Below are positions 5,521-62,521 of a stretch of 64,000 nt of DNA, in pieces. The stretch comes from Geothrix sp. GTDB lineage: Bacteria; Acidobacteriota; Holophagae; Holophagales; Holophagaceae. The notes below the pieces were generated by a model. That model was given only the letters and a program-made list of their open reading frames with translations, ran no database searches and was not told the origin of the DNA. The translations under genes and the position numbers were made by a program. The stretch lies in contig NZ_CP126625.1 of the NCBI RefSeq assembly GCF_030219325.1, positions 3,460,857 through 3,524,856 of the forward strand. Direction: 5' to 3'. Numbering within the stretch: the stretch's first letter is position 1; each line of letters opens with the position of its first letter.

Positions 5521-5796
5521 TTACTCGGACGCGGGAGCGCCCTCGGCGAGTTCGACATAGGCCTTCTTGCGGGGATTGGAGGTCCCGACAAAGCGGCCCA
5601 GGCGCTTGGTCCGGCTGGGGATCCGCACGGTGCGGATGGCCTTCACCTTGGACTGGAGCAGGAGCTCCACAGCTTCCTTGATCTGGTGCTTGGTGGCCCA
5701 GGTGGCCACCTCGAACACCTGGATGTTCTTCTCGCGCAGGATCTGGCCCTTCTCGGTGAGGAGGGGCTTGCGGATCACGTCAAAGATCTTGGTCAT
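5521..5796 (-). CDS. rplW: 50S ribosomal protein L23
   Basis: A 91-residue L23 starting MTKIFDVIRKPLLTEKG, with the family segment FEVATWATKHQIKEAVE at residues 29-45. It lies at the tunnel exit and is the main docking site for trigger factor and SRP. The ATG overlaps the rplD stop (ATGA, 5793-5796), indicating coupled translation. The C-terminus ends in a short acidic stretch. Confidence 0.96.
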   Translation of the reverse strand: MTKIFDVIRKPLLTEKGQILREKNIQVFEVATWATKHQIKEAVELLLQSKVKAIRTVRIPSRTKRLGRFVGTSNPRKKAYVELAEGAPASE

Positions 5797-6428: not shown

Positions 6429-6429
6429 C

Positions 6430-7056: not shown

Positions 7057-7070
7057 GGTCTCTCCCCCCT

Positions 7071-7397
7071 CTACCTGTTGCCCTGACGGCTGAAGACCTT
7101 GATCTCCACGTCGACGCCAGCGGGCAGGTCCAGGCGCATGAGGGTGTCCACGGTGTTCTGGGTCGGATTCAGGATGTCGAGCAGCCGCTTGTGCGTGCGG
7201 ATCTCGAACTGGTCCCGGCTCTTCTTGTCCACGTGGGGGGAACGGTTCACGGTGTACTTGTTCGTCCGGGTGGGGAGGGGAATGGGCCCCGCCACCGAGG
7301 CGCCCGTGCGCTTGGCGGTGTCCACGATCTCACGGGTGCTCTGATCGAGCAGACGGTGGTCGAAGGCACGCAAACGGATGCGGATGTTGTCTTTCAT
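7071..7397 (-). CDS. rpsJ: 30S ribosomal protein S10
   Basis: A 108-residue S10. The start is the ATG at 7395-7397 ([18 protein letters not shown]), preceded by GGAG seven bases upstream. Upstream in-frame codons to 7466 belong to the leader. Conserved parts include [20 protein letters not shown]10 is in the 30S head and also acts in NusB-S10 antitermination of rRNA transcription. It heads the S10-spc operon. Its promoter and a folded leader lie at about 7398-7514. Confidence 0.96.
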
Positions 7398-7407
7398 GCT
7401 CACTCCA

Positions 7408-7466
7408 TTGGGACGGGAACCGTCCATAGACGTGGGGCGCTGACCGCCCATGTAAATCCGTCCCAA
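7408..7466 (-). promoter_or_regulatory. Candidate folded leader of the S10 operon
   Basis: In the leader transcript upstream of rpsJ, a perfect 9-bp pairing (7408-7416 with 7458-7466) encloses about 41 nt that can form further GC-rich stems. The 3' arm ends next to the GGAG ribosome-binding site of rpsJ, so folding could change access to it. S10-operon leaders in gammaproteobacteria are bound by L4. Whether this one is autoregulated by any ribosomal protein is inference only. Confidence 0.4.
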
Positions 7467-7486
7467 CGACAGGGACAGGGCTGATC

Positions 7487-7514
7487 AGCATAACAAAAGC
7501 CGCTGGAAATACAA
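7487..7514 (-). promoter_or_regulatory. Candidate sigma-70-type promoter of the S10 operon
   Basis: Read on the minus strand, TTGTAT (7509-7514) and TATGCT (7487-7492) are separated by 16 bp. The predicted start is near 7480, giving a leader of about 80 nt before rpsJ. The same arrangement, TTGnnT then 16 bp then TAnnCT, occurs before rpsL and the rRNA operon in this window, which supports the call. Confidence 0.5.
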
Positions 7515-7647
7515 CGGCTATTTTGAGAAGAACGCACGACCACCCGTGGGCGGAAGCGGTTGGATCAAGAGGCCCGGCAACCTTGCGGTTCGGTGGATGG
7601 CCTCACCCCCGGAGGGGCTAAAACAATCAACTAAAGGTCTTGCCTTG

Positions 7648-7678
7648 CTCCAAAAACGAGTAGAGCCCGTTTTTGGAG
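7648..7678. terminator. Inverted-repeat hairpin after fusA
   Basis: A perfect 11-bp inverted repeat (CTCCAAAAACG at 7648-7658, CGTTTTTGGAG at 7668-7678) with a 9-nt loop lies just beyond the fusA stop. There is no downstream U tract, but the arms contain A5/T5 runs. Nearly the same arms occur at 32938-32970 after purH. It probably ends or processes the rpsL-rpsG-fusA transcript. Confidence 0.55.
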
Positions 7679-7688
7679 TGAAGAAGAA

Positions 7689-9797
<2,109 letters not shown>

Positions 9798-9856
9798 AGC
9801 GGCCTCCTGAAAGGATCAAAACGGAATCGGAGTCGGGACTGCTTCAAAGACCTTCG

Positions 9857-9889
9857 CGGAAGGAGCCGCCCAGGAGGCGGCTCCTTCCG
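9857..9889. terminator. Strong hairpin between rpsG and fusA
   Basis: A perfect 14-bp inverted repeat (9857-9870 with 9876-9889, 5-nt loop) fills most of the 105-bp gap between rpsG and fusA. On the minus strand it lies 13 bp after the rpsG stop. It lacks a clear U run, so partial termination or an RNA stability/processing function is as likely as full termination. fusA may therefore be expressed at a different level from rpsL-rpsG. Confidence 0.55.
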
Positions 9890-9902
9890 GTCAGATGGGC
9901 TG

Positions 9903-10373
9903 CTACCAGCGGAAGTGGGCGAAGGCCTTGTTGGCCTCGGCCATCTTGTGGACATCGTCCTTCTTCTTGATCGAGGCGCCGCGGAAGTTCATGGCATCCA
10001 GGATCTCGCCGGCCAACTTGTCGCGCATGGTGCGCTCGCCGCGGGAGGCGGAGTAGGTCTTCAGCCAGCGCATGGCCAGGGACTGGCGGCGGTTCTGGGG
10101 AACCTCCACGGGCACCTGGTAGGTGGCGCCGCCCACACGGCGGGACTTCACTTCCACCGAGGGCTTGATGTTGTTGAGGGCCTTCTGGAAGGCCTCCAGG
10201 GCCTCCTCGCCGGACTTCTTGGCGACGATCTCGAGTGCTCCGTAGAGGATGCGCTCGGCGGTGGCCTTCTTGCCCCGCTCCATGAGGATGTTCACGAACT
10301 TGGAGACGGTGAGGCTGTTGTAGACGGGATCCGGGAGGATCTCACGCTTGGCGGGTGCATTGCGACGAGCCAT
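9903..10373 (-). CDS. rpsG: 30S ribosomal protein S7
   Basis: A 156-residue S7 starting [20 protein letters not shown], with the family signature segment [20 protein letters not shown] at residues 29-48. S7 nucleates assembly of the 30S head and, in E. coli, represses the str operon. It lies 11 bp after rpsL and before fusA in the conserved order. Confidence 0.97.
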
Positions 10374-10384
10374 GGTCTACCTCC

Positions 10385-10783
10385 CTACTTCTTCTTGGCC
10401 GGCGCGGCGCCAGCCTTGGGGCGCTTGGCGCCGTACTTGGAACGGGACTGGTTGCGGCCGGCGACGCCGGTGGCGTCGAGGGTGCCGCGGACCACGTGGT
10501 AGCGCACGCCCGGCAGATCCTTCACGCGGCCGCCGCGGATGAGCACGATGCTGTGCTCCTGCAGGTTGTGGCCCACGCCCGGGATGTAGGTCGTGCACTC
10601 GATGCCGTTGGTGAGGCGCACACGGGCCACCTTGCGAAGCGCGGAGTTCGGCTTCTTGGGGGTGGTGGTGAACACGCGGGTGCACACGCCGCGCTTCTGC
10701 GGGCAGGCGTCGAGCGCGGGGCTCTTGGTCTTGTTGATGAACGTCTTCCGCCCGAAGCGGATCAGCTGATTGATGGTAGGCAC
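10385..10783 (-). CDS. rpsL: 30S ribosomal protein S12
   Basis: A 132-residue S12 starting [15 protein letters not shown]. The decoding-centre segments [12 protein letters not shown] (near residues 40-51) and [13 protein letters not shown] (near 91-103) are present. Lysines at the positions usually changed in streptomycin resistance appear wild type. The C-terminus is extended by a lysine/alanine-rich tail ending PAKKK. It is the first gene of the rpsL-rpsG-fusA transcript. Confidence 0.97.
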
Positions 10784-10901
10784 ACCATCCTCCTAGGAAG
10801 GCACCGGTGGATCCGGGCCTGGGCCCGAGAGGTTCGCCGGGCACGCCGGGGAACGTCGGACGGATGAAATCCTGCGCCGACCCACAGGGCCGGAACCATC
10901 T

Positions 10902-35688: not shown

Positions 35689-38007
35689 TTGCTTCCCATC
35701 CGCCGGCTGCTGCTGCGGGACCTTCTGGTCCTCATGGCCGGCCTGTCCACCTTGATCCTGGGCCTCGCCTGGTGGAGCCAGCAGCAAGCCTTGAAGCGCC
35801 AGGCCTCCGCCCGCACCGAATCGGCCCTGCACCATCTGGAGACCGTGCTTCACCTCGAATTGAAGGCCTCCCAATCCCTGGGCGAGGTGGTACAGGGTTG
35901 GTGGCTGAACGGGGCCCTGGATCCCACCCACCCGGAGGAGGCCGCACGTCTGATCCTCCCCCTGCTCACGGCCCAGCAGAGCATCACCAGCCTCAACCTC
36001 GCCCTCCAGGACGGACCCTCCCTGCTCTTTCTCCGGCGGAGTGACGCCTGGTTCATGCGGGAACTGGTCCAGCCGGGCCCCCAGGCCAGCATCCGGTGGC
36101 ACCGCCTGGGCAGACCCGGCGATCGCATGACCAGCGAGCCCTGGACCCCCATGGACTATGATCCCCGCACCCGGCCCTGGTACCAGGCCGGAGCCACCGG
36201 GACAGGGCCGTCCTGGACCGAACCCTACACCTTCTACACCACCAAGGATCCCGGCATCACCTGCACCTTCCCCATCCGCAATGCCAAGGGGCTGCTCGGG
36301 GTCGCGGCCCTGGACTTCCTCCTGGATGACCTGACGGCCGGCGTCTGGTCCGCCCAGCCGACACCCCGCAGCCGCTGCCTGGTGGTGGACCCTGGCGGGC
36401 GGGCGGTCATCCTCCCGAACGATCCAGCCTTCCAGACGCCCGCCTTGCGGCGGGAGGCCTTCCTGAGCCCTGTGGGATCCGGCTTCCTGGAAGCCCAGTC
36501 CGGACTCCTCAGGGCCCCCCTGGGCCGGACCCAGACCTTCCACCATCAGGGAGACGCGATGATCGGCCTGATCACGGAGTTCGCCTCCCTTCCCGGCATC
36601 CACTGGCGCCTGCTGATGACCGTCCCGGAGGAGGACCTGCTCGGCCCGGCCCGATTCCGGCTCTGGACCCTGTTCGGCATGGCCCTCCTCAGCCTGGGTC
36701 TGGCGGCCTGGCGCATCATCCACATCGCCCGCCGCGTTGCGGGGCCCATCTCCCAGCTCAGCGCGGCCGCCGAGGCGCTCGGCCTGGGCGAGACGCCCCC
36801 ACCCATCCACTCCCGCATCCTCGAGATCCGCAGCCTTGACCGGGCCCTGCGCCAGGCCGGCGAAAGCCTCCTCGATCAAGCCCGGCTCCAGCGCCAGCTG
36901 GAACACAGCCAACGCATGGAGACGGTCGGCACCCTGGCCGGAGGCATCGCCCATGACGTGAACAATCAGCTGGCGGCCATCCTGGGACAGCTGCACCTCT
37001 GCCGCGAGACCCTGCCCGAGGGCCATTCCGCGCTCAACCGGATCCAGCGCGCGGAGGAAGCCACCCGCCGCTGTGCCCAGACCACCAAGGCCCTGCTCTC
37101 CTTCAGCCATCAATCCCGCCCCGAGCTCCAGCCCCTGGATCTCAATGCCCTCGTCCAGAACACGGCCGCGGTCCTGGAACCTCTGCTGGGGGGCCGGATC
37201 CGGCTGCGCTGCCAGCTGACGCCGGACCTCCCCCCGATCTCGGGGGACGCGGTGCAACTGGAGCAGGTCCTCATGAACCTCGGGGTGAACGCCAGGGACG
37301 CCATGCCTGAAGGGGGCCACCTGAGCCTGAGCACGCTCGTGGGGGATGATGGCCGGATCCTCCTCGACATCCAGGACACGGGATCGGGCATTCCTGAGGC
37401 CCTCCTGCCTCGGCTGTTCGAACCCTTCGTCACCACCAAGGAGCACGGGAAGGGGACGGGCCTGGGGCTCGCGATGGTGTTCTCCATCCTGAAGGCCCAT
37501 GGCGGGGAGATCCGCGCCGAGAACATGGCCGAAGGGGGGGCCCGGTTCCGGGTGAGCCTGCCCCCGGCGGACTGTGCCGAGGTTCCGGTGGCGAAGGGGC
37601 CAGACCGGCTCAAAGCCGCTTCTCCAAGCCTGGCGGGGCGTCGCATCCTGGTCGTGGAGGATGAACCGCTCCTGCGCGAGATGCTCGCGGACGCCCTGAC
37701 GCTGGCCCGGATGCAGGTGACGACCGCCCCGGATGGCACCTTGGCCTGGAAGGCCTGGCAGCAGGCCCGGGGATTCGACCTGGTGATCAGTGACCAGCGG
37801 ATGCCGGACTGCACGGGACTGGAGCTGATGGCCCTCATCCGGGGGTGCGGCTCCGAGGTCCCCTTCATCCTGGTCAGCGGGCAGGGCCTTGAAAGCGTGG
37901 AGGGTCAGCTTTCCGCGGATCAGCGAGTCCGCTTCCTGCCCAAGCCCTTCGAGCTGCCCAGGCTCCTTCCCATCATGGAAGAGATGCTGAGTCCCCGGAA
38001 GGACTGA
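35689..38007 (+). CDS. Hybrid sensor histidine kinase with Cache-like periplasmic domain and receiver
   Basis: A 772-residue hybrid kinase. TM 1 is at about 10-28. A periplasmic Cache-like sensor follows, with a ligand-domain segment PWYQAGATGTGPSWTEPYT near 164-182. TM 2 is at about 322-345 and leads to a HAMP-like helix. HisKA is GGIAHDVNNQLAAIL (histidine near 421). HATPase has NLGVNARDAMPEGG and GKGTGLGLAMVFSI. The C-terminal receiver (near 650-772) has VVEDEPLL, DLVISDQRMPD (aspartate near 700) and KPFE. The start is TTG at 35689, with GGGAGG eight bases before it. It converges on the cytochrome operon with a 6-bp gap. Confidence 0.9.
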   Translation: MLPIRRLLLRDLLVLMAGLSTLILGLAWWSQQQALKRQASARTESALHHLETVLHLELKASQSLGEVVQGWWLNGALDPTHPEEAARLILPLLTAQQSITSLNLALQDGPSLLFLRRSDAWFMRELVQPGPQASIRWHRLGRPGDRMTSEPWTPMDYDPRTRPWYQAGATGTGPSWTEPYTFYTTKDPGITCTFPIRNAKGLLGVAALDFLLDDLTAGVWSAQPTPRSRCLVVDPGGRAVILPNDPAFQTPALRREAFLSPVGSGFLEAQSGLLRAPLGRTQTFHHQGDAMIGLITEFASLPGIHWRLLMTVPEEDLLGPARFRLWTLFGMALLSLGLAAWRIIHIARRVAGPISQLSAAAEALGLGETPPPIHSRILEIRSLDRALRQAGESLLDQARLQRQLEHSQRMETVGTLAGGIAHDVNNQLAAILGQLHLCRETLPEGHSALNRIQRAEEATRRCAQTTKALLSFSHQSRPELQPLDLNALVQNTAAVLEPLLGGRIRLRCQLTPDLPPISGDAVQLEQVLMNLGVNARDAMPEGGHLSLSTLVGDDGRILLDIQDTGSGIPEALLPRLFEPFVTTKEHGKGTGLGLAMVFSILKAHGGEIRAENMAEGGARFRVSLPPADCAEVPVAKGPDRLKAASPSLAGRRILVVEDEPLLREMLADALTLARMQVTTAPDGTLAWKAWQQARGFDLVISDQRMPDCTGLELMALIRGCGSEVPFILVSGQGLESVEGQLSADQRVRFLPKPFELPRLLPIMEEMLSPRKD

Positions 38008-38013: not shown

Positions 38014-38994
38014 TCACTTCGTGGCGGACCCGCCCTTCTCGTGGCACCCGAGACAGGTGGCCAGCTTGGCATCGGGGCTCCGCCAGTACACGCTGTCCTG
38101 GTTGCCGAAATCCTTCTGCAGATTCGCAGGTACCCGGCCCCAGTAGAAGGCGAAGGCCGTGGTCCCATCGCCCTTGGTCTCCTTCATGTAGAGAGGGCCG
38201 GGCTCGGTGCTGGGCTTGCCCTTCTCGTCGGTGAAGGTGGACATGACCGCGTACGCGCCGGGAGGCAGGGGCTTGCCGGCCTTGTAGGCGTCGATGCCCG
38301 AGGCCGAGACCCAGACCCGGCGCCAGCGGTCGCCATGGGCCTTGCTCCGCGCCGGAGCGGTTTCCGCAGGCTCGAGGCTGGCGTAGTCCAGGGCCCGGAT
38401 CGGCAGCTCGGCCTCGGCATCGTTGCGCTTGGCCTTCTCAACCTCCGCGGCGGCCTTGTTCGTCTCCTCGTTGCCGAAGACCATGATGCCGCCCAGTTTC
38501 CCGCTGAAGCCCCAGCAACCCAGCCAGAGGAACCCGACCAGGAGGGCTGGCGCTCCAACCCCGCGTTCCCAGAAGCGGCGACCGGCATGGCGATGCTCCT
38601 GGCCTGCGGAGCCGGGGCCGAAGTCCCGCCTCCAGACGCGCCAGAGCATGAAGACGCAGACGCCCCCGATGAGGAACCCGGCCGTGGCCGCGAGGATGTG
38701 GATCTGCAGGATCTTCTGCAGCACCTGCTTCTCATTGGCCACCACGGGAAGGAACCCCGAAGGGCTGATCAGGTTGATCTGCCGGCCCCATATCAGCCCG
38801 CTGAACAAGGCGATGGTGCTGCCGAGCCACCCGATGACCGCCAGGAAGAAGGAGGTCCCGGCGAGGATCTTCCCGTGCCTCGGATGGAAGGAGGCCAGCA
38901 TGGCCAGGGGCAGGACGGCCACGAGGCCGAGGGGGATGTGGACGAAGGCCGGGTGTTCCCGCGCGATGAACTCGAGCAGTGGGGATGCGCTCAT
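38014..38994 (-). CDS. Membrane protein with C-terminal P460-like haem domain
   Basis: A 326-residue fusion. The N-terminal part (1-180) has four or five TM helices of the DUF2231-like type (HPAFVHIPLGLVAVLPL at the start). The C-terminal periplasmic domain has VWVSASGIDAYKAGKPLPPG, FAFYWGRVPANL and a haem-binding CLGCH near 315-319 in KLATCLGCHEKG. The pattern of cytochrome P460-type domains is seen there. It is the last gene of the four-gene run and lies 12 bp after the barrel gene. It may bring a haem domain to the inner membrane for quinone or periplasmic electron transfer. The P460 label is by pattern only. Confidence 0.65.
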   Translation of the reverse strand: MSASPLLEFIAREHPAFVHIPLGLVAVLPLAMLASFHPRHGKILAGTSFFLAVIGWLGSTIALFSGLIWGRQINLISPSGFLPVVANEKQVLQKILQIHILAATAGFLIGGVCVFMLWRVWRRDFGPGSAGQEHRHAGRRFWERGVGAPALLVGFLWLGCWGFSGKLGGIMVFGNEETNKAAAEVEKAKRNDAEAELPIRALDYASLEPAETAPARSKAHGDRWRRVWVSASGIDAYKAGKPLPPGAYAVMSTFTDEKGKPSTEPGPLYMKETKGDGTTAFAFYWGRVPANLQKDFGNQDSVYWRSPDAKLATCLGCHEKGGSATK

Positions 38995-39006: not shown

Positions 39007-39876
39007 CTAGAAGACGCGCGTCACGTTGAAGCCGAGGGACCAGTTGCCCGACAACCTCGGACCGCCTCCGTAGTCGCCGCTCATCACCTGGTTCGCGGTG
39101 GTGCCGCTGGCGTTGGTGCCGACCAGGGTGAACCGGTGCTTGAAGGTCTTGTAGGAGAACCCGACGGCAAATCCGTTCTGGTAGGTGGTGCCGTCGGTGA
39201 TGCCGCCGGGGGCGGCCTTGGCGAACTTCGAGGGCCGGGGATAGTACTCGCTGACGAAGGAGAACTTCTCCGTGAATCCGATGCGCAGGCCCAGGCCCAG
39301 GTTCAAGACACCGCCCGTGTTGGCCTTGGTGTTGGGCGTCTGGCCCGGCGGCACGGCCAGGATGGTGTCGGTCGTCGTGGTCTTGGTGATGTAGCTGGGC
39401 ACCAGCGAGAAGATGATGTCATCCGTGATGAAGATCTCCACTGGGACCTGCAGGGCCAATCCGGAAATGCCCACCTTCCCGAGGGGCGTCGTCGTCTCCT
39501 TCACCACCTCGTCGAAGCGCTCGGCACGGACCGCCATGCGTACCCGTTCACCGTTCAGCACCTGCTCCTGCAGGCCGAAGGTGAAGGTCTTGTTGTCGGC
39601 CGTGCGGTAGATGAAGGCATTCAGTCCGGGAATGGGCTTGATCCCGAAGGTGAAGCCCAATCCCGCGTAGGTGTACCCATCCAGGCCGTAGACGTCCTTG
39701 CCATGGTCCTTTACCGGCTGCACGAAGCGGTGGGTGAACACCACGCCGATGTCCCAGTACTGCATCCGCTCCGCCGATGGCAGGTTGATCACCAGCGGGT
39801 ATTCGGACGATTCAGCGCGAAGCGCTCCCCCAGCCAGGAGGGCGCAGGCAAGCAGGGGAGCGGTCTTCCTAGTCAT
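39007..39876 (-). CDS. Outer-membrane beta-barrel protein (DUF5777-like)
   Basis: A 289-residue exported protein. The signal peptide MTRKTAPLLACALLAGGALRA probably ends near residue 21. The rest is alternating strands rich in aromatic residues, such as VVFTHRFVQPVKDHG and GYTYAGLGFTFGIKP, ending in the outer-membrane signature phenylalanine (NVTRVF). The pattern suggests 12-14 strands and the DUF5777 family. It lies between two cytochrome genes, 16 bp and 12 bp apart. It is too small for known decahaem-conduit porins, so a conduit role is only a hypothesis. Confidence 0.65.
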   Translation of the reverse strand: MTRKTAPLLACALLAGGALRAESSEYPLVINLPSAERMQYWDIGVVFTHRFVQPVKDHGKDVYGLDGYTYAGLGFTFGIKPIPGLNAFIYRTADNKTFTFGLQEQVLNGERVRMAVRAERFDEVVKETTTPLGKVGISGLALQVPVEIFITDDIIFSLVPSYITKTTTTDTILAVPPGQTPNTKANTGGVLNLGLGLRIGFTEKFSFVSEYYPRPSKFAKAAPGGITDGTTYQNGFAVGFSYKTFKHRFTLVGTNASGTTANQVMSGDYGGGPRLSGNWSLGFNVTRVF

Positions 39877-39892: not shown

Positions 39893-40243
39893 TTACTTGG
39901 CCGCGAACTTGCGCATGATGGGGATCATCTTCTCGACGTCGGCCTGGGTCATCTTGTCCTTGAAGGCGGGCATCTTGTCCTTGCCCTCCAGGGTGATCTT
40001 GACCCAGTCGCTGTCCTTCTTCTTGTTGGCCTTCCGGCTGTCCGTGAAGTCGAAGCCGTTGTCGGGAAGCGGCTTGCCGCTGTTGTCGCGGCCGCTGCCG
40101 TTGGCGCCATGGCAGCGGGCGCAGGCGTCCGACCAGTACTTCTGGTAGTCGCTGCCCGAGAACTTGGGCAGGTCCTTGGCGGGATCGCCCGCCAGGAGCG
40201 ACGCGCCGGCCAGGAGCAGGGCGGAAAGGGTGATGCGACTCAT
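39893..40243 (-). CDS. Monohaem c-type cytochrome
   Basis: A 116-residue periplasmic class I cytochrome c. The signal peptide MSRITLSALLLAGASLLAG is followed by CARCH at 41-45 and a methionine axial ligand candidate in KMPAFKDKM (M91). The small size and single haem suit an electron shuttle between the inner membrane and outer-membrane partners. It lies 39 bp after the multihaem lipoprotein gene and 16 bp before the barrel gene, on the same transcript by spacing. Confidence 0.88.
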   Translation of the reverse strand: MSRITLSALLLAGASLLAGDPAKDLPKFSGSDYQKYWSDACARCHGANGSGRDNSGKPLPDNGFDFTDSRKANKKKDSDWVKITLEGKDKMPAFKDKMTQADVEKMIPIMRKFAAK

Positions 40244-40282: not shown

Positions 40283-43200
40283 TCAGTTCCAGACGTTCCC
40301 GGTGGTGGTGTGCCCCTGGCCATGGCAGCTGAGGGCGCAGCCGCCCCGACCGATGGTGGCGTTCACCGTGTAGGTGAGGGCGCCGGTGGCGGGCTGGGAG
40401 CCCCCGCCGAACTTGATGGTGTCGCTGGAAAGCTGGTCCGGCGCCTGGCGGACCCCGGAGTTGTCCAGGTACTTGAAGTGGTTCTGGGCGCCCTGGGTGG
40501 CCTGGGTCATGACATGGCAGTAGTCACAGGTCTGGTTGTGGGCGCCGGGATTGTTGTGGCGGCCCGTGGCGTCGTTGAACTGCGTGGCGGTGCTGGCGAT
40601 CTTGTGGCAGGCGACGCAGTAGGTCGTGGCGTTCACGGTGATCGTGCCCGTCTGCCAGCCAGGGGTCGTCTGTCCGCCGTGGCAGCTCACATTGGAGCAG
40701 GTGAAGGCCGAGGCGCTGGCCGTGGTGCCCGCCGCCCCACTCTGCGCGTTGAAGGTGGGGTCGATGGACACGGAGGCCGGACCGGCGGTCACGGGCGTGG
40801 CCAGGCGCTTGTTGGCATTGCTGTAGTGGGTCTGGGCTGAATCATAGGGCACGGAGCCCACGTGGCAAGCCTCGCAGTCGGGATAGGCCGAGGCGGTGAG
40901 CGAGGCCGGCAGGGCCGGGGTCGTGCGGGTGAAGGTGATCAGGTTCAGGTGCTTCGGATGGGCCCCCGCGAGGTTGGGCCAGGCCGCGCCGGTGGGCCCG
41001 GCCTTGGTGAAGTTGGCCCCGGTGTGGCAGGAGAGGCAGGTGCCAGCTCCCAGGCCTGTGGTGAGCGGCGAGCCGAGGGTGTGGCAGACGGTGCACACGG
41101 GGCCCGTCTTGGTGGTGGTGCCGCTCTGGTCATGGCAGGTGGCGCATTCCAGGTTGAACTGGGCCAGGGTCACGGTCTGGTGGGAATAGCCGGCCGTGCT
41201 GGTGGCCGTGCTCAGGAAGGGCACGGGGTGGGCCACGCCAGATCCCTTGGGTGCGGCCCAGTGGTTGGTGGCGGGCACATGGTTCTGGCTGTGGCAGGTC
41301 AACGCGCAGCCGCCGTCCCCTTCGGTGAAGGGTGCGGTGGTCACGTCGTAGGTGGCGGCCCCGGTGATGGGATAGGTGGTGTTCGTGAGCTTGAACTTGA
41401 TGGTGCCGCTGGGCAGCTTGTTGGTGCTGCTGACCGCCGGCGTGTTGAGCTCCGCGAAGTGGTTCACGGCGCCCAGATTCGTGTTGGCGGCACTCATGTC
41501 GTGGCAGATGGTGCAGTCCAGCTGGCCCGCGGAGGCGTGCGTGCCGTAGGAATGGCGGCCCACGGCGTCGTTGAACTGCGAGGTGGTGGTGCCGCCGTTG
41601 ATGGCGTGGCAGAGGGAGCACTGGCTGGTGGAGGCGATGGTGCCCGTGCGCCAGTTGGGCGTGGCCTGCCCGCCGTGGCAGCTGGTGTTGGAGCAGGTGA
41701 GGGCGGACACGTTGAACACTGCCGTGCCGAGGCTCTGGGCGTTGTAGGTGGCGTCGATGTTCACGCTGGCGGGGCCCGTGGGTGGCGTGCTCCGGGCATT
41801 GGCGTTGGCATAGTGGGTGGCCGTGCCGGCGCCGCTGCCGGCGTGGCAGGTGTCACAGCTCAAGGTGGTCTTCAAGGCCATGTGCTTGGCGTGGGCGCCG
41901 GCAATGGCGGGGAAGGTGGTCCCCGTGGGCCCGGCGGGCATGCCGGAGGTCCCCGCGTGACAGGACAGGCAGGTCCCGGTGCCGGTGCCGACCACGGTCG
42001 GGTCGGCTGCGGTGTGGCAGACCGAGCAGAGGGGCGCACCCTGGGTGGGCGAGGTGCCGGTGACGGCGTGGCACGAGCTGCAATCCGAGGCGAAGGTGGC
42101 CGCAGTCGCCGTAAGGTGGCCGTTGCCCTGGGTGGTGGCCTGCCCGCCGAGGAAGGGCACGGGGTGGGGGGCGCCGGAGGACTGCCAGGTATCGAGGGGA
42201 GCGCCCGCGTGGATGTGGGTGTGGCAGGTGAGGGCGCATCCGCCATTGCCCTGGGTGCTCGAGGTCACGGCGTAGGTGCCGGCGCCGGTCACGATCAGGG
42301 GATCGAAGGCGATGGTTCCGCTGGGCAGCTGGTCCGCAGGCGCGCCCGTGGCCGTGCCATCGACGGCCCCGGTGTTGAGGTACTTGAAGTGGGCCAAGGC
42401 CCCGGGGGAGCCATTGCCCATGTTGTGGCAGGTGGTGCAGGCGATGGCGTTGGCGGCCTTGGTGGCATCGTGGGTTCCGATGCTGTGGCGGCCGAAGGCG
42501 TCGTTGTACTGGGTGATGGTCCCGGCGCTGGCCGCCACCGCATGGCAGACCGTGCATTGGGTGGCGGAATTGATGGTGCCGTTCTGCCAGCCCGGCGTGG
42601 CCTGGCCACCGTGGCAGCTCACGTTGGAGCAGGTGAGCGAGGAGGGGCTGAAAGCGGGATTGCCGCCCGTCTTGGCCATGAACAGGAGGTTGATGGCGAC
42701 GCTGGCAGGGCCGGCGGGTGTGCCCACCCGCGCGTTGGCGTTGGCGTAGTGCGTGGCCGTGCCCGTGCCGCTGCCCGCGTGGCAGGTGTCACAGGTCAGC
42801 TGGGTGGCCAGGGCCATGTGCTTGGCGTGGGCGCCGGCGATGCTCGGGAAGCCTGAGCCCGTGGGCCCGGCAGGCAGCCCCGCGGCCCCAGCGTGGCAGG
42901 AGCGGCAGGTCCCGGCATTCGTTCCCGCGATGGTCGGATCCGCCAACTGGTGGCAGACGTTGCAGAGTGGGGCCCCGGCCTTGGGGGGCGCGCCGGAGTA
43001 GGCGTGGCAGGTGGCGCAATCGGCGGTGAAAGCCGCCGCCGTCACGGTCAGGTGGCCATTCCCGCTGGTGTCGGTCTGGCCCTGCAGGAAGGGGACCGGG
43101 TGCGGAGCCGTGTTGGCGCCGTGGCACATGGTCGCGTTGTAGCAGCCTGGCTGGGTGCCCGCAGGGGCGGGCGTGGAGGGATGGCCAGCCGGATTGTTGG

Positions 43201-43744
43201 CAGAGCCGGGGTAGTGGCACTGGGCGCAGACGGCGGCATTGGACGGATCCGTGCTGCTATGGGTCCAGGTCACCACACCGCCGTTCCAGGGCTTCGCAGG
43301 GTGGGGGGCGCTCACCCCATGACAGGTGAAGCAGGTGCTGGCGGAGGGGCCGCCGGAAAAGTCCCCGCCGTGGCAGATCTGGCAGGACACCAGGCTGCCG
43401 CCCGAGACGGCATTCATGGCCATCTTCGCGCGCGAACCATGGATGGCCGGATCGGCGAAGCCTGGCGTGGACTGGTGATGACACCCGGTGGTCATGCAGG
43501 TGGGTACGCCGCTGCCGACCTTGAGAACGGAAATCTCGTGACATCGCGTGCAGGCATCCACGCCCAAGACCGCTTGCCCAGGGTGCTCAGTGATCCATCC
43601 GGCCTTGTGGTAGTTGCCGTAGTACTGAGCGGTACCGGCTCCCTTGTTGCCCCCACAGCCCATGAGCGCAAGCGTGGAAACCAGGAGGAAACCAAGAACC
43701 CCCGACAGACTCGTCGTGCAGTTCCAACTCCAAGTCCTGTTCAT
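40283..43744 (-). CDS. Giant multihaem c-type cytochrome lipoprotein (about 30 candidate haem sites)
   Basis: A 1153-residue lipoprotein. The signal ends in the lipobox LMGC (cysteine 30). I count 22 CXXCH, four CX4CH (such as CSNVSCH), three CX3CH (CALTCH, CALSCH) and one CX5CH motif. Residues 213-512, 525-822 and 838-1145 are three copies of one module. Each has the order four CXXCH, one CX4CH followed by HGGQ.TP.W, two CXXCH, one CX3CH. The CX4CH-CXXCH block matches the Geobacter-type C4xC/C2xCH motif family. It is probably anchored in the outer membrane for extracellular electron transfer. The start is the ATG at 43742-43744; the extension to 43963 lacks similarity. Confidence 0.9.
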   Translation of the reverse strand: MNRTWSWNCTTSLSGVLGFLLVSTLALMGCGGNKGAGTAQYYGNYHKAGWITEHPGQAVLGVDACTRCHEISVLKVGSGVPTCMTTGCHHQSTPGFADPAIHGSRAKMAMNAVSGGSLVSCQICHGGDFSGGPSASTCFTCHGVSAPHPAKPWNGGVVTWTHSSTDPSNAAVCAQCHYPGSANNPAGHPSTPAPAGTQPGCYNATMCHGANTAPHPVPFLQGQTDTSGNGHLTVTAAAFTADCATCHAYSGAPPKAGAPLCNVCHQLADPTIAGTNAGTCRSCHAGAAGLPAGPTGSGFPSIAGAHAKHMALATQLTCDTCHAGSGTGTATHYANANARVGTPAGPASVAINLLFMAKTGGNPAFSPSSLTCSNVSCHGGQATPGWQNGTINSATQCTVCHAVAASAGTITQYNDAFGRHSIGTHDATKAANAIACTTCHNMGNGSPGALAHFKYLNTGAVDGTATGAPADQLPSGTIAFDPLIVTGAGTYAVTSSTQGNGGCALTCHTHIHAGAPLDTWQSSGAPHPVPFLGGQATTQGNGHLTATAATFASDCSSCHAVTGTSPTQGAPLCSVCHTAADPTVVGTGTGTCLSCHAGTSGMPAGPTGTTFPAIAGAHAKHMALKTTLSCDTCHAGSGAGTATHYANANARSTPPTGPASVNIDATYNAQSLGTAVFNVSALTCSNTSCHGGQATPNWRTGTIASTSQCSLCHAINGGTTTSQFNDAVGRHSYGTHASAGQLDCTICHDMSAANTNLGAVNHFAELNTPAVSSTNKLPSGTIKFKLTNTTYPITGAATYDVTTAPFTEGDGGCALTCHSQNHVPATNHWAAPKGSGVAHPVPFLSTATSTAGYSHQTVTLAQFNLECATCHDQSGTTTKTGPVCTVCHTLGSPLTTGLGAGTCLSCHTGANFTKAGPTGAAWPNLAGAHPKHLNLITFTRTTPALPASLTASAYPDCEACHVGSVPYDSAQTHYSNANKRLATPVTAGPASVSIDPTFNAQSGAAGTTASASAFTCSNVSCHGGQTTPGWQTGTITVNATTYCVACHKIASTATQFNDATGRHNNPGAHNQTCDYCHVMTQATQGAQNHFKYLDNSGVRQAPDQLSSDTIKFGGGSQPATGALTYTVNATIGRGGCALSCHGQGHTTTGNVWN
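40286..43108 (-). repeat. Three tandem coding repeats of an eight-haem-site module
   Basis: Within the cytochrome gene, modules at about 42173-43108, 41234-42172 and 40286-41233 (in the order of translation) encode the same series of haem motifs with clear residue similarity. Shared landmarks include APHPVPFL or AHPVPFL at the start, HAKHM or HPKHL, THYANAN or THYSNAN, and the GGCALTCH or GGCALSCH end. Copies 1 and 2 are closer to each other than to copy 3, which suggests stepwise duplication. Confidence 0.85.
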
Positions 43745-44082: not shown

Positions 44083-47055
44083 ATGCGGACTCGAGTGGCA
44101 GGAAACCGATCTTCCCTGGGGGAGGCCTTGCGATGCCTTGTCATCGCGCTGCCATGGGTATGGTCTTCCGTCACGGCCTTCGCCCTCGATCCGTCCAGGC
44201 CGCTCGCGGCCCATGCCCACCACATCTGGCGCAGCGAAGATGGCCTGCTCCAGGACACGGTCTCGGCGCTGCTCGAGTCCAGGGATGGCTTCCTCTGGAT
44301 CGGTACCGAGGCGGGTCTGGTCCGATTCGATGGCGCCACCTTCGACCACTATTCCCGTCTCAGCCTCCCCCGGTTCGAACACAACGACATCCAGTGCCTG
44401 GCCGAAGGTACCGACGGGGCCATCTGGATCGGCACCTCCGAGCAGGGCCTTTATCGCTTCCACCAGGGGGAGATCCGCGCCTTCGGCTCGGCGGAGGGGC
44501 TGCCCGATCAGCCCATCCGCCGCCTGCTCCGCGACCGCAGCGGGACGCTGTGGGCAGCCCCCATGGAGGGGCCCCTGCTCCGTTTCGACGGGGCCCGGTT
44601 CCAGACCGTGCCCACGGATGCGGCCCGGTTGCGCATCCGCGTCCTCACCATGGACGCGGAGGGAGCGCTCTGGGTGGGAACGGCCGGGTCCGGCCTTTGG
44701 CGCCTCCGGGAGGGCCGCCTCGTGCTGGCCGCCCTGACTGCGGACGAGATCACGGCCCTCGCGGTCGAGGCTGACGGCCAGGTCCTGGCGGGCACCCGCA
44801 CCCATGGCCTGCTGGCGCTCTCGGAGGGACGCCTGGAGGTCCCCGCCTGGGCGAAGCGGCTCCCGCCCAAACCCGTTTGTTCCCTGATGCGGGACCGGCA
44901 GGGGAGCCTCTGGATCGGTCTGGAGCAGGGCGGGCTCTTCCGTCGGAACCCGGAGGGCCGACTGGAGCCCTCCCCCAGTCCCCTCGGCGCCCGGTGGACG
45001 CCGCTGTCTCTGCTGGAGGACAGCTCTGGCGCTTTCTGGGCCGGAAGCGAGGACCGGGGGCTGCGGGTGATCTACCCGGTTCCCTTCCAGCCCCTGCCCG
45101 TGGTGGGTGTCGAGCCGGAGGAACCCGCCTGGATGGTCTGCCAGGACGCCCAGGGAATCATCTGGTGCCTCACGGGGGATCAGACCCTGGGGCGCGTTCA
45201 ACAGGGCCGCGTCGAACCGGTCCGCCCTGGCGTCCCCCTGGGCGGTCCCATCAGCTGCCTCTGGCCCCGCCGCAGCGGCGGGTTGTGGATCGGCACCCGC
45301 ACCGGCGAGCTATGGGCCATGGAGCAAGGGCAGTTCCACCGCGTACGGTGGGCCGAGGATCCCCACCCCGATGCCATCGTGTCGCTCTTCGAGGACGGCC
45401 AGAGACACTTGTGGGTGGCCACCTCGCGCCAGGGTCTGATCCAGTGCACGCCTGGGACCCCGCCGGTCCGATTCCCCGCCATCCAGGGGGTGGTGGCCAT
45501 GGCCGGTGGCGGCCCTGGCCCCCTGTACCTGGCGAGTCGCACTCAGGGTCTGGGCCTGCTCGAATCCAGCCAGGTCCGCTGGCTGGGCCGGTCCGAAGGC
45601 CTGGGCTCCAACGGCGTGAATGCCCTGCACCTGGACAGCGAGGGTTCTCTGTGGGTCGGCACCATGGACGGCCTGCGCCGCTACGTGGACGGCGCGTTCC
45701 AGACCTTCGGCGGACGCCCTGGCCCCCTGCTCCTGGCCATCCACGCCATTCTGGAGGACTCCGCCCACCGAATGTGGCTCAGCACCGGCCAGGGCGTGCT
45801 TCAGGTCCCCCGCAGCGCGCTCATCCGGAGCCTCAGGGTCGCCGAACCCGTTCCCGGGATCCTCTTCGACCACCACGACGGCATGCCCTCCCGCGAGACC
45901 AACGGCGGTCCCCAGCCCGTAGCCTGGCTCACGCGGGAGGGGGAGCTCTACTTCCCCACCAGCCGGGGGCTGACCCGCCTGGATGGACGCGCTGCAGTAC
46001 CTCCGGGCACGCCCTTGCGCCTCCACATCCTCAAGGCGGAAGGCGACGAGATCATCCTCCCCGAGACACGGCCGATCCAGGTCCCCCCCGGCACCCATCG
46101 ATTCGAGGTGTATTACACGGCCACCTCGCTGACGCGCTCCGACAAGCTCCGGTTCCGCTACCGGCTCGAGGGCCTGGAGCATGCCTGGAACGAGGTGGGA
46201 GACCGGCGGTTCTCCGCCTACTCCAATGTGCCCCCCGGGTCCTACCGATTCGTGCTCCAGGCCTGGCGCCTCGGTGATGAGGCCCCACCGAAGCAGGTGA
46301 CGGTCGATGTCCACGTCCAGCCCTTCTTCTACCAGCGCCCGGTCTTCTGGGGCCTGGGCGCCATCCTGGGCCTGGCGTTCGGCTGGTGGCTGCTCCGCCT
46401 GCGGCTCCAGCAGGCGGAGGCGCGCTCCGCGGTGCTCGGCGAGCGCAACCGCATGGCCCGGGAGATCCACGACCACCTGGCCCAGGGTTTCACGGGCGTC
46501 CTGCTCCAACTGGAGGCGGCCGAGGCCAGGCTCACCCGCATGCAGGGTGATCCAGCGCCGGTCCTGACCCGACTGGACCATGCCCGCAATCTCGCGGTGG
46601 CGAGCCTCCAGGAGGCGCGCCGGTCCGTCATGGTGCTCCGCCCGAGGAAGCCCGAGGGAACCGACCTCCTGGGCGCCCTCCGCCTGCTCACGGACCGGCT
46701 GCTGGCGGGAACGGACATCCAGGTCGAGCTGGCCGTGATGGGGAAGCCGAGGGCCCTGAGGGAAAACCTGGAGGAGGAACTCCTGCGCATGGCCCAGGAA
46801 CTGATGACGAACGCCCTCCGCCATGGCAAGGCTCGCTGGGTGCGGGTGGTGCTCGAGTTCGAACCCAGGCGGGTGCGCATCAACGTCGAGGATGACGGGA
46901 AGGGCTTCGACCCCACGGCCGCCGTCGCCGGCTATGGCATGCGCAGCATCCGTGAAAGCATCAGCAAACTCCAAGGGCACCTGGACATCGACAGCAGCCA
47001 GGGCCTCGGATCCCGCATCACCATCACCCTACCCACCCGGAGGTGGCGTCCATGA
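44083..47055 (+). CDS. Beta-propeller sensor histidine kinase (Reg_prop/Y_Y_Y, NarX-type transmitter)
   Basis: A 990-residue kinase. A hydrophobic N-terminus (near 15-35) is followed by many propeller repeats ending in GxLWIGT-like strands, such as GFLWIGTEAGLVRFDG, out to about residue 640. A Y_Y_Y domain (near 665-745) has RFRYRLEGLEHAWNEVG and SNVPPGSYRF. One TM helix lies near 754-775. HisKA_3 has RNRMAREIHDHLAQG (histidine near 796), then HATPase with ELMTNALRHG and EDDGKGF. The gene overlaps the next regulator gene by 4 bp and is divergent from the multihaem operon. Confidence 0.93.
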   Translation: MRTRVAGNRSSLGEALRCLVIALPWVWSSVTAFALDPSRPLAAHAHHIWRSEDGLLQDTVSALLESRDGFLWIGTEAGLVRFDGATFDHYSRLSLPRFEHNDIQCLAEGTDGAIWIGTSEQGLYRFHQGEIRAFGSAEGLPDQPIRRLLRDRSGTLWAAPMEGPLLRFDGARFQTVPTDAARLRIRVLTMDAEGALWVGTAGSGLWRLREGRLVLAALTADEITALAVEADGQVLAGTRTHGLLALSEGRLEVPAWAKRLPPKPVCSLMRDRQGSLWIGLEQGGLFRRNPEGRLEPSPSPLGARWTPLSLLEDSSGAFWAGSEDRGLRVIYPVPFQPLPVVGVEPEEPAWMVCQDAQGIIWCLTGDQTLGRVQQGRVEPVRPGVPLGGPISCLWPRRSGGLWIGTRTGELWAMEQGQFHRVRWAEDPHPDAIVSLFEDGQRHLWVATSRQGLIQCTPGTPPVRFPAIQGVVAMAGGGPGPLYLASRTQGLGLLESSQVRWLGRSEGLGSNGVNALHLDSEGSLWVGTMDGLRRYVDGAFQTFGGRPGPLLLAIHAILEDSAHRMWLSTGQGVLQVPRSALIRSLRVAEPVPGILFDHHDGMPSRETNGGPQPVAWLTREGELYFPTSRGLTRLDGRAAVPPGTPLRLHILKAEGDEIILPETRPIQVPPGTHRFEVYYTATSLTRSDKLRFRYRLEGLEHAWNEVGDRRFSAYSNVPPGSYRFVLQAWRLGDEAPPKQVTVDVHVQPFFYQRPVFWGLGAILGLAFGWWLLRLRLQQAEARSAVLGERNRMAREIHDHLAQGFTGVLLQLEAAEARLTRMQGDPAPVLTRLDHARNLAVASLQEARRSVMVLRPRKPEGTDLLGALRLLTDRLLAGTDIQVELAVMGKPRALRENLEEELLRMAQELMTNALRHGKARWVRVVLEFEPRRVRINVEDDGKGFDPTAAVAGYGMRSIRESISKLQGHLDIDSSQGLGSRITITLPTRRWRP

Positions 47056-47696
47056 CCACAACCCCGTCAGACCGGATCCGCCTGCTCATCGTCGACGATC
47101 ACCCCATCGTTCGCGACGGCCTGGTGTCCATTCTCCACGAAGGCGAGCCCGACCTCGAGGTGGTGGGAGAGGCTGGCGACGGCAGGGAGGCCGTGGAAAT
47201 CTGGCGGACCCTCCGTCCCTCCGTGACGATCATGGACCTCCAGCTTCCGGGCCAGACGGGCGTGGAGGCCATCAAGGCCATCCGCCGCGAAGACCCGGAG
47301 GCCAAGATCCTCGTCCTCACCACCTTCGACGGTGACGCGGACATCCAGCGGGCACTGGAGGCAGGTGCCCGCGGCTACCTCCTCAAGAGCGTGCGGCGGG
47401 CCATCCTCATTGAGGCCGTGCGCGCCGTCGACGCGGGCCACCGCTACCTTCCCCCGGCCACCGCCGCCCGCCTGGTGGAGGCCATGGAGTCCGAGCGCCT
47501 CACCCCGCGTGAACTCGACGTGCTCAAGCTGCTGGCCGAAGGCCAACGCAACCGGGAGATCGCGGATGTCCTGGGACTGGCCGAGCCCACCGTGAAGATC
47601 CACGTGAACAACCTGCTGCGGAAGCTTCAGGCCAAGGATCGCACCGAGGCCGCGGTGATCGCCCTCAAGCGGGGGCTGATCCACCTCGGGCAGTAG
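47052..47696 (+). CDS. NarL/FixJ-family response regulator
   Basis: A 214-residue regulator. The receiver has VDDHPIVRDGL, phospho-acceptor VTIMDLQLPGQ (aspartate near 62) and KSVRRA. A LuxR-type helix-turn-helix follows, LTPRELDVLKLLAEG and PTVKIHVNNLLRKL (near 150-195). The ATG overlaps the kinase stop (ATGA at 47052-47055), so the two form a co-translated pair. It is the most probable regulator of the divergent cytochrome operon, by position only. Confidence 0.93.
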   Translation: MTTTPSDRIRLLIVDDHPIVRDGLVSILHEGEPDLEVVGEAGDGREAVEIWRTLRPSVTIMDLQLPGQTGVEAIKAIRREDPEAKILVLTTFDGDADIQRALEAGARGYLLKSVRRAILIEAVRAVDAGHRYLPPATAARLVEAMESERLTPRELDVLKLLAEGQRNREIADVLGLAEPTVKIHVNNLLRKLQAKDRTEAAVIALKRGLIHLGQ

Positions 47697-57008: not shown

Positions 57009-57017
57009 GGGTTTTAA

Positions 57018-57133
57018 CGTCGCAGCGACCTACTTTTCCACGCATGTGATGCGCAGTATCATCGGCCCTCCAGGTCTTAACGGCCGTGTTCGGGATGGGA
57101 ACGGGTGTGACCCCTGGGGAAAAGCCACGACGA
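57018..57133 (-). rRNA. rrf: 5S ribosomal RNA
   Basis: About 116 nt on the minus strand. The conserved CCCATCCCGAACACGG loop C/helix region is present, and the ends pair (CGTCG with CGACG). It follows 23S rRNA by about 80 nt. The ends are estimated to within a few bases. Confidence 0.93.
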
Positions 57134-57193
57134 AGGGTTAGAAGGCGAGAAGGGTTTAAGGCGAAGCTCTGTAGAGCGTTCGTGGGTATGTCG

Positions 57194-57215
57194 AATGTTA
57201 TTGATTGATGAAAGG
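57194..57215 (-). other. 23S rRNA processing stem, 3' arm
   Basis: These 22 nt are complementary at about 20 positions to 60147-60168 at the 5' side of 23S rRNA. A further CGTGGGT (57181-57187) pairs with ACCCACG near 60178. Together they form the long stem by which pre-23S rRNA is cut out, normally by RNase III. Confidence 0.7.
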
Positions 57216-60148
<2,933 letters not shown>

Positions 60149-60364
60149 TTCCATCAATGAATAACATTGACTTCAGACCCACGAGAGTATTTCGATTTCG
60201 CTAAACTTGCCTCGCCTTAAGCCCACAGCGTCACTTCAACGCCATGGATCACCCTTCTCTATTCCTTCTATTTAAATGTCAAACAACTCTGCCTTTCGGC
60301 CACCGACCCTTGAATCGGTCTTGAGCTGGATTCAAACCTCGAAAGGTCTCAACTCAACTCAAAT

Positions 60365-60442
<78 letters not shown>

Positions 60443-60465
60443 GTGTTCCTTGCTCCATTCGGCGC

Positions 60466-60541
60466 TGGTGGACCCGACCGGGTTCGAACCGACGACCTCC
60501 TGGATGCAAACCAGGCGCTCTCCCAGCTGAGCTACGGGCCC
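60466..60541 (-). tRNA. tRNA-Ala (TGC)
   Basis: A 76-nt tRNA with encoded CCA. The acceptor GGGCCCG pairs with CGGGTCC with one G-U pair, and the anticodon loop TTTGCAT carries anticodon TGC. The T arm has GGTTCGAACCC. In transcription order it precedes tRNA-Ile in the spacer (16S-Ala-Ile-23S), 23 bp upstream. Confidence 0.97.
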
Positions 60542-60578
60542 AGTTACAGACGCCCAAACACGCTCGTCAAAGATTGCA

Positions 60579-60602
60579 CGAGCGTCTTTAAAAACCGGAT
60601 AG
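60579..60602 (-). other. 16S rRNA processing stem, 3' arm
   Basis: These 24 nt are complementary at 23 of 24 positions to 62319-62342 in the leader. Together they form the stem closing the pre-16S rRNA for RNase III cleavage. Confidence 0.8.
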
Positions 60603-60654
60603 ATATTGCGATCGGAAGCGTTGACCTATCGTCATCTCATTGAGACGACTCTCC

Positions 60655-62197
<1,543 letters not shown>

Positions 62198-62521
62198 TCA
62201 TTCTGAACTCTCATCCCAAATCCTTAGACTTGGAAAAAATGCTCTGGTCGAAAAATTGTTCTGAATTCTGATCGACATCCTTAGACGCCAACCAAAACCC
62301 TCAAAGGCTTCCTATCTTCTATCCGGTTTTCAAAGACGCTCGCCATGCTCTCCGCATGACTCCGAACAGCCTCTCAGCCATCCTCGCACCCCACAGCCTC
62401 AACTGCGCAGGACATTCAGACTAACACCAGGGCCCCCAGATGCAAGAGAAAAATTTACGCAAGGGGCACCAATCCTTCATCGGGGGCCATCCTTCGGCCA
62501 TCATGGGCCATCGGAGAGGCC
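62198..62521 (-). promoter_or_regulatory. rRNA operon leader and promoter region
   Basis: On the minus strand TTGCAT (62440-62445) and TAGTCT (62418-62423) are 16 bp apart, with an AT-rich tract (TAAATTTTTCTC) just upstream that could be an UP element. The leader of about 215 nt contains the 5' arm of the 16S processing stem (62319-62342). The remaining plus-strand side is the short promoter region of galU, where no clear box was found. Confidence 0.6.

Follow-up and report, generated by a model that had tools for sequence, protein, structure and literature searches.

The window analysed here, a 64,000-nucleotide stretch of Geothrix sp. DNA, carries on its minus strand an open reading frame that runs from an ATG at 43744 to a stop at 40283 and encodes a 1153-residue multihaem cytochrome with 30 haem-type sites; plus-strand frame 1 across 40283-43744 is interrupted by stops. 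The preliminary description of this DNA placed the gene at the same coordinates, to which the minus strand can be added, and its site counts are exact: 22 CXXCH, 4 CX4CH, 3 CX3CH, and 1 CX5CH, making 30 distinct CH ends. Across 2000 shuffles of the protein, each class averaged 0.17 to 0.19 sites and the total never exceeded 5. The polypeptide begins with a signal peptide and lipobox recognized by pattern (LMGC, Cys30; 43655-43744, minus strand), and the lipobox pattern recurs in 12 of the 12 orthologues that possess an N-terminus, a 13th being truncated. The cytochrome is predicted to be a lipoprotein and probably resides at the cell surface. Pfam Cytochrome_C7 matches portions of it, while a match to the Pfam MtrC/MtrF domain (E 2.4e-19) was not counted as a sign of membership, as closely spaced haem motifs can inflate such scores.

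The operon and its neighbors

The cytochrome gene is the first of a four-gene operon and is followed, on the same strand, by genes for a one-haem cytochrome c, a DUF5777 barrel, and a P460-like membrane protein. The cytochrome c (39893-40243, minus strand) has 116 residues and a single CXXCH, the histidine of which is the only one in the protein, so that its haem is presumably His/Met-ligated. The DUF5777 membrane β-barrel protein (39007-39876, minus strand), identified by domain match, comprises 289 residues, ends in phenylalanine, and yields 10 candidate strands in a crude amphipathicity scan. The third partner (38014-38994, minus strand) has one CXXCH near its C-terminus and, by a simple scan, three hydrophobic stretches; its DUF2231 and P460-like matches both fall under the Pfam cut-off. 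Divergently oriented on the plus strand are a propeller-type histidine kinase (44083-47055), conserved beside the operon in Geothrix loci, and an adjoining NarL/LuxR-type response regulator (47043-47696). A riboswitch was considered and set aside, since Rfam gave no match close to the operon and yielded tRNAs alone for six related loci; promoter and terminator scans, which returned 1 and 4 sites versus 0.5 and 2.7 in shuffles, were not used.

In 77 genomes of the family, with adjacency taken from coordinates, a DUF5777 gene adjoins the cytochrome in 38 of the 41 that bear the module described below, across six genera, and also occurs in 14 of the 36 that lack it. Of 75 named loci, 30 have all three partner genes next to the cytochrome, counts that depend on the sampling of a one-genome-per-species collection.

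A repeated eight-site module

The array consists of a six-site N-terminal cap (residues 31-208; 43121-43654, minus strand) and three eight-site modules, also on the minus strand: module 1 (residues 213-512; 42209-43108), module 2 (residues 525-822; 41279-42172), and module 3 (residues 837-1145; 40310-41236), the last being of a terminal type. The cap, defined by its motif order (X2-X4-X2-X2-X2-X5), holds the fourth CX4CH and the sole CX5CH of the protein, whereas each module, delimited by alignment and by a tree of modules, displays four CXXCH, one CX4CH, two CXXCH, and one CX3CH in that order. The module tree contains 73 copies out of 25 chosen proteins, with distant rows on long branches.

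Motif order and module alignments bear out the 24-site array plus six-site cap proposed at the outset, and the triple repeat reflects common descent rather than ancestry limited to the haem motifs. With module 3 compared over residues 838-1145, the closest pair is modules 1 and 2, as had been suggested, at 64% identity compared with 56% (1-3) and 53% (2-3). When the haem motifs are masked, identity is still 61% (1-2), 52% (1-3), and 49% (2-3), with z values of 77, 53, and 44, respectively, against 500 shuffles in which the masked motif blocks were held in position. The earlier picture of a defined module with fixed variant spacings that grew by internal duplication is therefore supported well beyond the motifs. 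By the same measure, the case for the cap being one more, degenerate module is weak (masked z of 2.6, 6.6, and -0.3 against modules 1, 2, and 3).

Conservation was assessed in an alignment of 134 module copies, retained from 138 extracted after four truncated or near-duplicate rows were dropped; a smaller alignment holds 17 rows chosen from 87 modules by dissimilarity. The cysteine and histidine columns at seven sites are invariant across the 134 copies, including both Cys columns and the His column of CX4CH (134/134), a figure owed in part to ascertainment, the scan pattern having been placed on that site. At the last site, the CH is kept in 131-132 copies and a recognizable CX3CH or CX4CH in 116. 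Under a CX2-5CH rule, one of the first four sites is missing in 5 rows and the last in 18, although their Cys/His columns still align. Eight histidines outside the motifs (distal histidines) are retained in 129, 129, 134, 134, 134, 132, 131, and 134 of the copies, as bis-histidine ligation would need, and a ninth is present in 101. Each haem would be held by its own CXnCH site and by one of the eight conserved distal histidines of its module. The eight-site module, with its sites and histidines, is here described as one putative unit.

A haem-free AlphaFold2 model of module 2 reaches a pLDDT of 86.2 and a pTM of 0.81; a full-length model built on 14 rows was discarded (pLDDT 26). Foldseek matched the module model to nothing in the PDB at E values up to 10, so that there is no solved relative showing how the haems stack, and VIA returned nothing. 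Haem-packed proteins have little regular structure, and the missing matches are for this reason not taken to prove a new fold. These searches also bear on whether the protein is a polymerizing nanowire subunit like OmcS, OmcE, or OmcZ, its tandem modules being a fused row of protomers. With its eight haem sites and conserved histidine pairs, the module recalls OmcZ, an octahaem cytochrome, but neither PDB sequence searches nor Foldseek listed OmcS, OmcE, or OmcZ, and the lipobox suggests anchoring rather than a free filament, making this explanation very unlikely.

Module number among relatives

The preliminary description treated the array as fixed and suggested a search for homologues with other module numbers; complete open reading frames with 1, 2, 3, 4, 5, 6, and 7 modules were found, with up to 71 sites. 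Cytochromes beside the same three partner genes have 14 to 49 sites. The genome that supplies the 30-site gene also encodes a six-module, 54-site paralogue, and none of the three partner genes was found within the stretches examined around the 54- and 71-site paralogues. Among named Geothrix at the conserved locus, G. rubra, G. paludis, G. campi, G. terrae, and G. oryzisoli have 17-site alleles, and G. limicola has a 30-site allele.

The lone module of a 14-site gene (L096) resembles module 1 to approximately residue 185 and module 3 thereafter, which fits an origin by deletion between repeats. An ancestral single module that was later split by insertion is also possible, given that G. paludis (L102) has a similar pattern, that L098 does not clearly do so, and that in L133 and L140 cap-like genes combine a CX5CH site with a single module.

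Added modules would increase capacity stepwise if the haems acted chiefly as a capacitor for electrons, whether on the cell surface or in the periplasm, with haem number rather than reach being what varies. Available portions of the literature describe GSU1996 as a capacitor (PMC10138318) and raise storage as a role of PCC3 haems (PMC10734462). Such a charge store is nonetheless improbable here, as the protein is a predicted lipoprotein whose operon also encodes a membrane barrel and two further haem proteins, and storage alone leaves the fixed place of the cap and the terminal half-module unaccounted for.

A variable middle at a conserved Geothrix locus

In 23 loci at a conserved Geothrix position, the cap and the C-terminal half-module are constant, while the middle contains 4, 7, 10, or 20 sites. 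A flank tree was built from four flanking genes in the 23 loci that hold all four; the downstream hybrid kinase, which matches at only 68% between the window and L108 and is absent from the nucleotide alignment, was excluded. Haem-number labels are clustered on this tree (6 changes versus a shuffled mean of 10.4) and the 17-site form is a single group, so that much of the variation in haem number is vertical. The 20-site middles, however, do not follow their flanking genes. The window (30 sites) is sister to L108 (20 sites) and L086 (30 sites) is sister to L110 (20 sites), each with support of 100/100, and the label "20" takes 4 changes, every one forced by starred branches. The L108 and L110 middles share 87% identity, compared with 43% for the middles of L108 and the window, although the flanking genes of L108 and L110 sit in different starred clades.

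The overall clustering of labels would also be expected if nothing had been exchanged, the middle evolving fast in place and modules being gained and lost separately in each lineage. The cap and C-terminal half likewise diverge beyond the flanking genes (0.72 and 0.75, window versus L108). That account is quite improbable in view of the closely similar L108 and L110 middles and of DNA similarity that, in three comparisons (two involving L110), stops at residue 208-209 and returns near the last CX4CH site. Array length would instead be altered by unequal recombination together with exchange of the middle between strains.

Exchange of the middle under attack, for instance as a phage receptor, would make the cytochrome a diversifying surface protein and its haem number a side effect. 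The discordance between the middle and its flanks is in keeping with this idea, the eight flanking proteins being 90 to 98% identical between the window and L108, and a 2026 paper, in the text available from it, gives raised mutation and exchange rates for cytochromes and refers to Shewanella OmcA as a target of phage (PMC12977616). Against it, conservation across copies is nearly complete at the haem-site Cys/His columns and at the eight distal histidines, meaning that change occurs within strict limits, and this origin of the variation is judged somewhat unlikely.

Proposed function

The likeliest role of the protein is in extracellular electron transfer, as a haem wire of adjustable length at the cell surface, provided that its sites are occupied and its haems form a continuous chain. 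The fixed six-haem cap and four-haem C-terminal half-module would enclose an expandable middle of eight-haem modules, and electrons would travel along the covalently joined array, linking the outer membrane with acceptors or donors that lie outside it. The cytochrome would probably be a surface lipoprotein and the outermost part of a four-gene system in which the membrane haem protein, the one-haem cytochrome c, and the DUF5777 barrel accompany the multihaem rod.

Several observations count against the surface wire. At 289 residues the barrel seems too small to sheathe a multihaem protein, and the small operon cytochrome has a single haem, so that the crossing of the outer membrane lacks an account in this explanation. 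The module model has no PDB match, the 54- and 71-site paralogues lack nearby partner genes in the stretches examined, DUF5777 genes occur in genomes of the family that have no module, and much of the variation in haem number is vertical. In addition, secreted redox mediators are reported for Geothrix fermentans in the accessible part of PMC5732950.

A broader reading, tentative and held with less than even confidence, is that the covalent haem wires of Holophagaceae are built to set lengths, with a fixed six-haem foot, a fixed four-haem tip, and an exchangeable middle, and that length or reach is itself a selected and exchanged trait. One locus with one operon chassis would offer steps of 14, 17, 20, and 30 haems, related operons would extend from 18 to 49, and stand-alone paralogues would reach 54 and 71.

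Although sequences of giant multihaem cytochromes are already known, their internal units are seldom this clear; the repeat unit here has eight sites, eight strongly conserved distal histidines, and a confident haem-free model. The natural series of one to seven copies, some of them allelic at a single conserved locus of named Geothrix strains, would let reach, rate, and storage be related to haem number, and it offers a candidate for a poorly known Geothrix electron transfer route.

Comparison with known systems

The domain model TIGR01904 (GSu_C4xC__C2xCH) matches three stretches of the protein at 54.4 bits versus a cut-off of 27 (E 7.9e-15) and also matches the L091, L118, L137, and L151 proteins. 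As in these CxxxxCH/CxxCH domain cytochromes, the CX4CH-CXXCH core of each module scores above the curated cut-off, but the 73-position domain spans just part of a module of ~300 residues.

In MtrCAB and OmcB-type conduits, a surface multihaem cytochrome is partnered by an outer-membrane barrel. Compared with MtrCAB and OmbB-OmaB-OmcB, the operon genes include no multihaem cytochrome able to sit inside a barrel. The porins of PCC3 systems are much larger than the 289-residue DUF5777 barrel, which differs from them in this respect. PCC3 cytochromes, as described in the available sections of PMC5566968 and PMC10734462, are very large, repeat-rich surface proteins with 10 to 35 haems in Gallionellaceae and up to 85 elsewhere, and their clusters include an adjoining barrel, a periplasmic cytochrome of ~21 haems, and an inner-membrane protein that has five helices and carries two HX13H motifs. 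The present cytochromes are similar in having many haem sites in variable number (14 to 49) beside conserved partner genes. They differ in that the operon encodes a 116-residue cytochrome with one CXXCH and no periplasmic multihaem cytochrome, and motif and hydrophobicity scans of its membrane protein found neither an HX13H motif nor a five-helix arrangement.

Haem number also varies between close relatives among large Burkholderiales cytochromes, the adjoining porin being 97.6 to 97.7% identical (PMC7399161); that porin is OmbB-like, and the available part of the source describes no defined module or exchanged middle. The Geobacter GSU1996 type comprises four tandem trihaem domains in a periplasmic protein with one His/Met haem per domain, according to the accessible text of PMC10138318. 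It shares with the present protein the tandem arrangement of homologous haem domains in a single chain, but here the modules have eight sites and conserved extra histidines, and the protein is a predicted lipoprotein. On these likenesses, the 30-site cytochrome may be placed among the relatives of the TIGR01904, PCC3, and GSU1996-type cytochromes.

Architecture of the cytochrome and its module

The multihaem cytochrome gene of the window (positions 43744 to 40283, minus strand) encodes a 1153-residue protein that has a lipoprotein-type signal recognized by sequence pattern (LMGC, Cys30), 30 haem-type CXnCH sites, and 36 other histidines, amounting to about 37 residues per site past the signal. 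The count of 30 haem sites in the preliminary description is borne out, with shuffled versions of the protein reaching at most five sites in 2000 trials. The protein matches NCBIfam TIGR01904 above cut-off and the Pfam families Mtrc-MtrF_II-IV_dom, Cytochrom_c3_2, and Cytochrome_C7, the latter being read as general multihaem similarity.

A six-site N-terminal cap precedes three eight-site modules. The modules (residues 213-512, 525-822, and 838-1145) can be aligned end to end, and with the haem motifs masked they still share 61, 52, and 49% identity (z = 77, 53, and 44); they are related beyond their haem motifs, as had been proposed, rather than alike in these motifs only. Among 87 complete modules from the window and same-genus genomes, the CH ends of all eight sites and eight other histidines are invariant; the last site keeps its first cysteine in 82 modules, and a ninth histidine likewise occurs in 82. 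A wider set of 134 modules extends to Desulfobacterota and Nitrospirota and is biased towards the CX4CH site because the scan pattern used for collection spanned it. In this set, the Cys, Cys, and His columns are invariant at seven sites, the last CH is present in 131-132 modules, and the eight histidines are present in 129-134. The commonest spacing is 2-2-2-2-4-2-2-3 (99/134), and CX4CH serves as the last site in 11; by a CX2-5CH rule, the last site is absent in 18 and one of the first four in 5. Eight sites with eight conserved partner histidines per module are what would be expected from bis-histidine ligation of eight haems.

AlphaFold2 predicts a haem-free fold for module 2 from 134 alignment rows (pLDDT 86.2, pTM 0.81), for which Foldseek returned no match in the PDB at E up to 10. 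The full-length cytochrome yielded no reliable model.

Length series and module history

The search for homologues with one, two, or four modules, suggested at the outset, recovered all of these within a series of one to seven. Complete frames in named Holophagaceae-type loci contain one module (14 sites, L096; 17 sites, eight loci; 18 sites, L116; 20 sites, four loci), three (30 sites, 12 loci; 31 sites, L119 and L121; 33 sites, L122), four (41 sites, L115), five (49 sites, L118), six (54 sites, L085), or seven (71 sites, L091). Two-module frames lie on Deltaproteobacteria-labelled contigs (L126, 24 sites; L120, 23 sites with an incomplete second match). Nitrospirota (L137: 8 sites in 280 residues) and Geobacteraceae (L151: 7 sites in 300 residues) have genes with a single module and no full cap. 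Many of these loci are metagenome bins, and long single frames are therefore provisional, including the 2672-residue frame of the 71-site gene (L091:4814-12832), which comprises a cap, a module, a second cap, and six further modules. It is flanked by tRNA genes on both sides.

The window's own genome (3.73 Mb, single contig) also encodes a six-module, 54-site paralogue in a 2134-codon frame (L044:9060-15464; C1 about 3597059-3603463). It has a lipobox-like LFGC, and the three partner genes described below are absent from the 18-kb stretch around it. The same type of gene is found in a second Holophagaceae genome (L085, read also as L046).

In a tree of 73 modules, the terminal, penultimate, and first-type modules form three clades (100/100, 100/96, and 100/99), with distant rows placed with little certainty on long branches. 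Expansion seems to proceed via copying of the first-type module while the last two stay in place, because the 54-site protein consists of four first-type, one penultimate, and one terminal module.

Several further loci contain related genes. Two contigs, one of them named Geobacteraceae (L131, L133), carry four consecutive genes for large CX4CH cytochromes, of which the first encodes one module and a cap-like part with a CX5CH site. A Bacillota-labelled contig (L106) has a DUF5777 gene and a module that shares 50% identity with window module 1; it is probably a mis-labelled Holophagaceae bin. A sequence with weak similarity (33%) to the cap plus the first module (L045; G000 C1 466211-467551) has two in-frame stops and may be read either as a degraded copy or as two adjoining genes.

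Discordance of the middle with its flanks

The window and 22 named loci contain all four flanking genes used for comparison. Their cytochromes have 30 (11 loci), 20 (4), 17 (7), or 14 sites (1). When each of the 23 genes is divided at its CX5CH site and immediately ahead of its last CX4CH site, the result is always a six-site cap and a four-site C-terminal part around a middle of 20, 10, 7, or 4 sites. The flanking-gene tree pairs the 30-site window with the 20-site L108, and the 30-site L086 with the 20-site L110 (each 100/100), such that the 20-site label requires four changes. L108 and L110 nevertheless share 87% identity in their middles, versus 43% for the window and L108. Across all labels there is clustering on the flanking-gene tree, with 6 changes compared with a mean of 10.4 in shuffles (none of 200 was as low), and the 17-site loci form one group; discordance is therefore demonstrated for just the 20- and 30-site forms.

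In three BLAST comparisons, two with L110, nucleotide similarity is lost at residue 208-209 and returns at about residue 991 to 1023; these numbers derive from BLAST coordinates and gene starts, and the BLAST ends are approximate breakpoints. Because of this inexactness, and because the cap and C-half diverge more than the flanking genes, the exchanged tract may be larger than the middle, or fast change may account for the pattern.

Operon and distribution

Directly downstream of the cytochrome are a one-haem cytochrome c (gap of 39 bases), a DUF5777 beta-barrel protein (16 bases), and a membrane protein with one CXXCH and sub-threshold DUF2231 and P460 matches (12 bases). Genes for a propeller histidine kinase and for a NarL-type regulator diverge from the operon on its upstream side. 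Of 75 named loci, 30 have all three partners beside the cytochrome; paralogue loci, short contigs, and distant phyla are among the rest. The module is present in 41 of 77 Holophagaceae genomes; DUF5777 occurs in 39 of these 41 versus 14 of the 36 module-free genomes and, counted from coordinates, adjoins the cytochrome in 38 (exceptions G034, G307, and G345). In a phylum-wide draw of 297 Acidobacteriota genomes, with up to eight candidates scored per genome, at least 18 have the module (E up to 1e-20), all 18 being Holophagaceae.

Elsewhere in the window, the operon adjoins a hybrid histidine kinase (35689-38007), whose best match in L108 is 68% identical versus 90 to 98% for other L108 flanks; this stretch seems to be missing from L108. 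An rRNA operon (5S, 23S, 16S) with two tRNAs occupies 57017-62198 (minus strand), and about 1-10800 is filled by what we take to be clustered ribosomal protein genes, including an EF-G-like gene. One match each to ResB and Cytochrom_C_asm in the genome fits cytochrome maturation by system II.

Proposed role and comparison with known systems

Geothrix respires Fe(III) and electrodes. Electrons would most likely be exchanged among the membrane haem protein, the one-haem cytochrome, and the multihaem cytochrome, a surface rod whose haems would conduct towards or away from solid substrates. Transfer to the rod would occur at the barrel, and this outer-membrane crossing is the weakest point of the proposed path. 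According to PMC11748539, Holophaga and Geothrix are implicated in extracellular electron transfer, and PMC5732950 has G. fermentans also using secreted mediators.

The available excerpts of the open-licence PMC literature contained no description of the eight-site module family, its one-to-seven series, the DUF5777 operon, or a middle that is exchanged. Those excerpts do provide precedents for individual features: PCC3 for surface cytochromes that are large, rich in repeats, and variable in haem number (PMC5566968, PMC10734462), the large Burkholderiales cytochromes for variation in haem number next to a nearly identical porin (PMC7399161), and the Geobacter GSU1996 type for tandem haem domains within one chain (PMC10138318).
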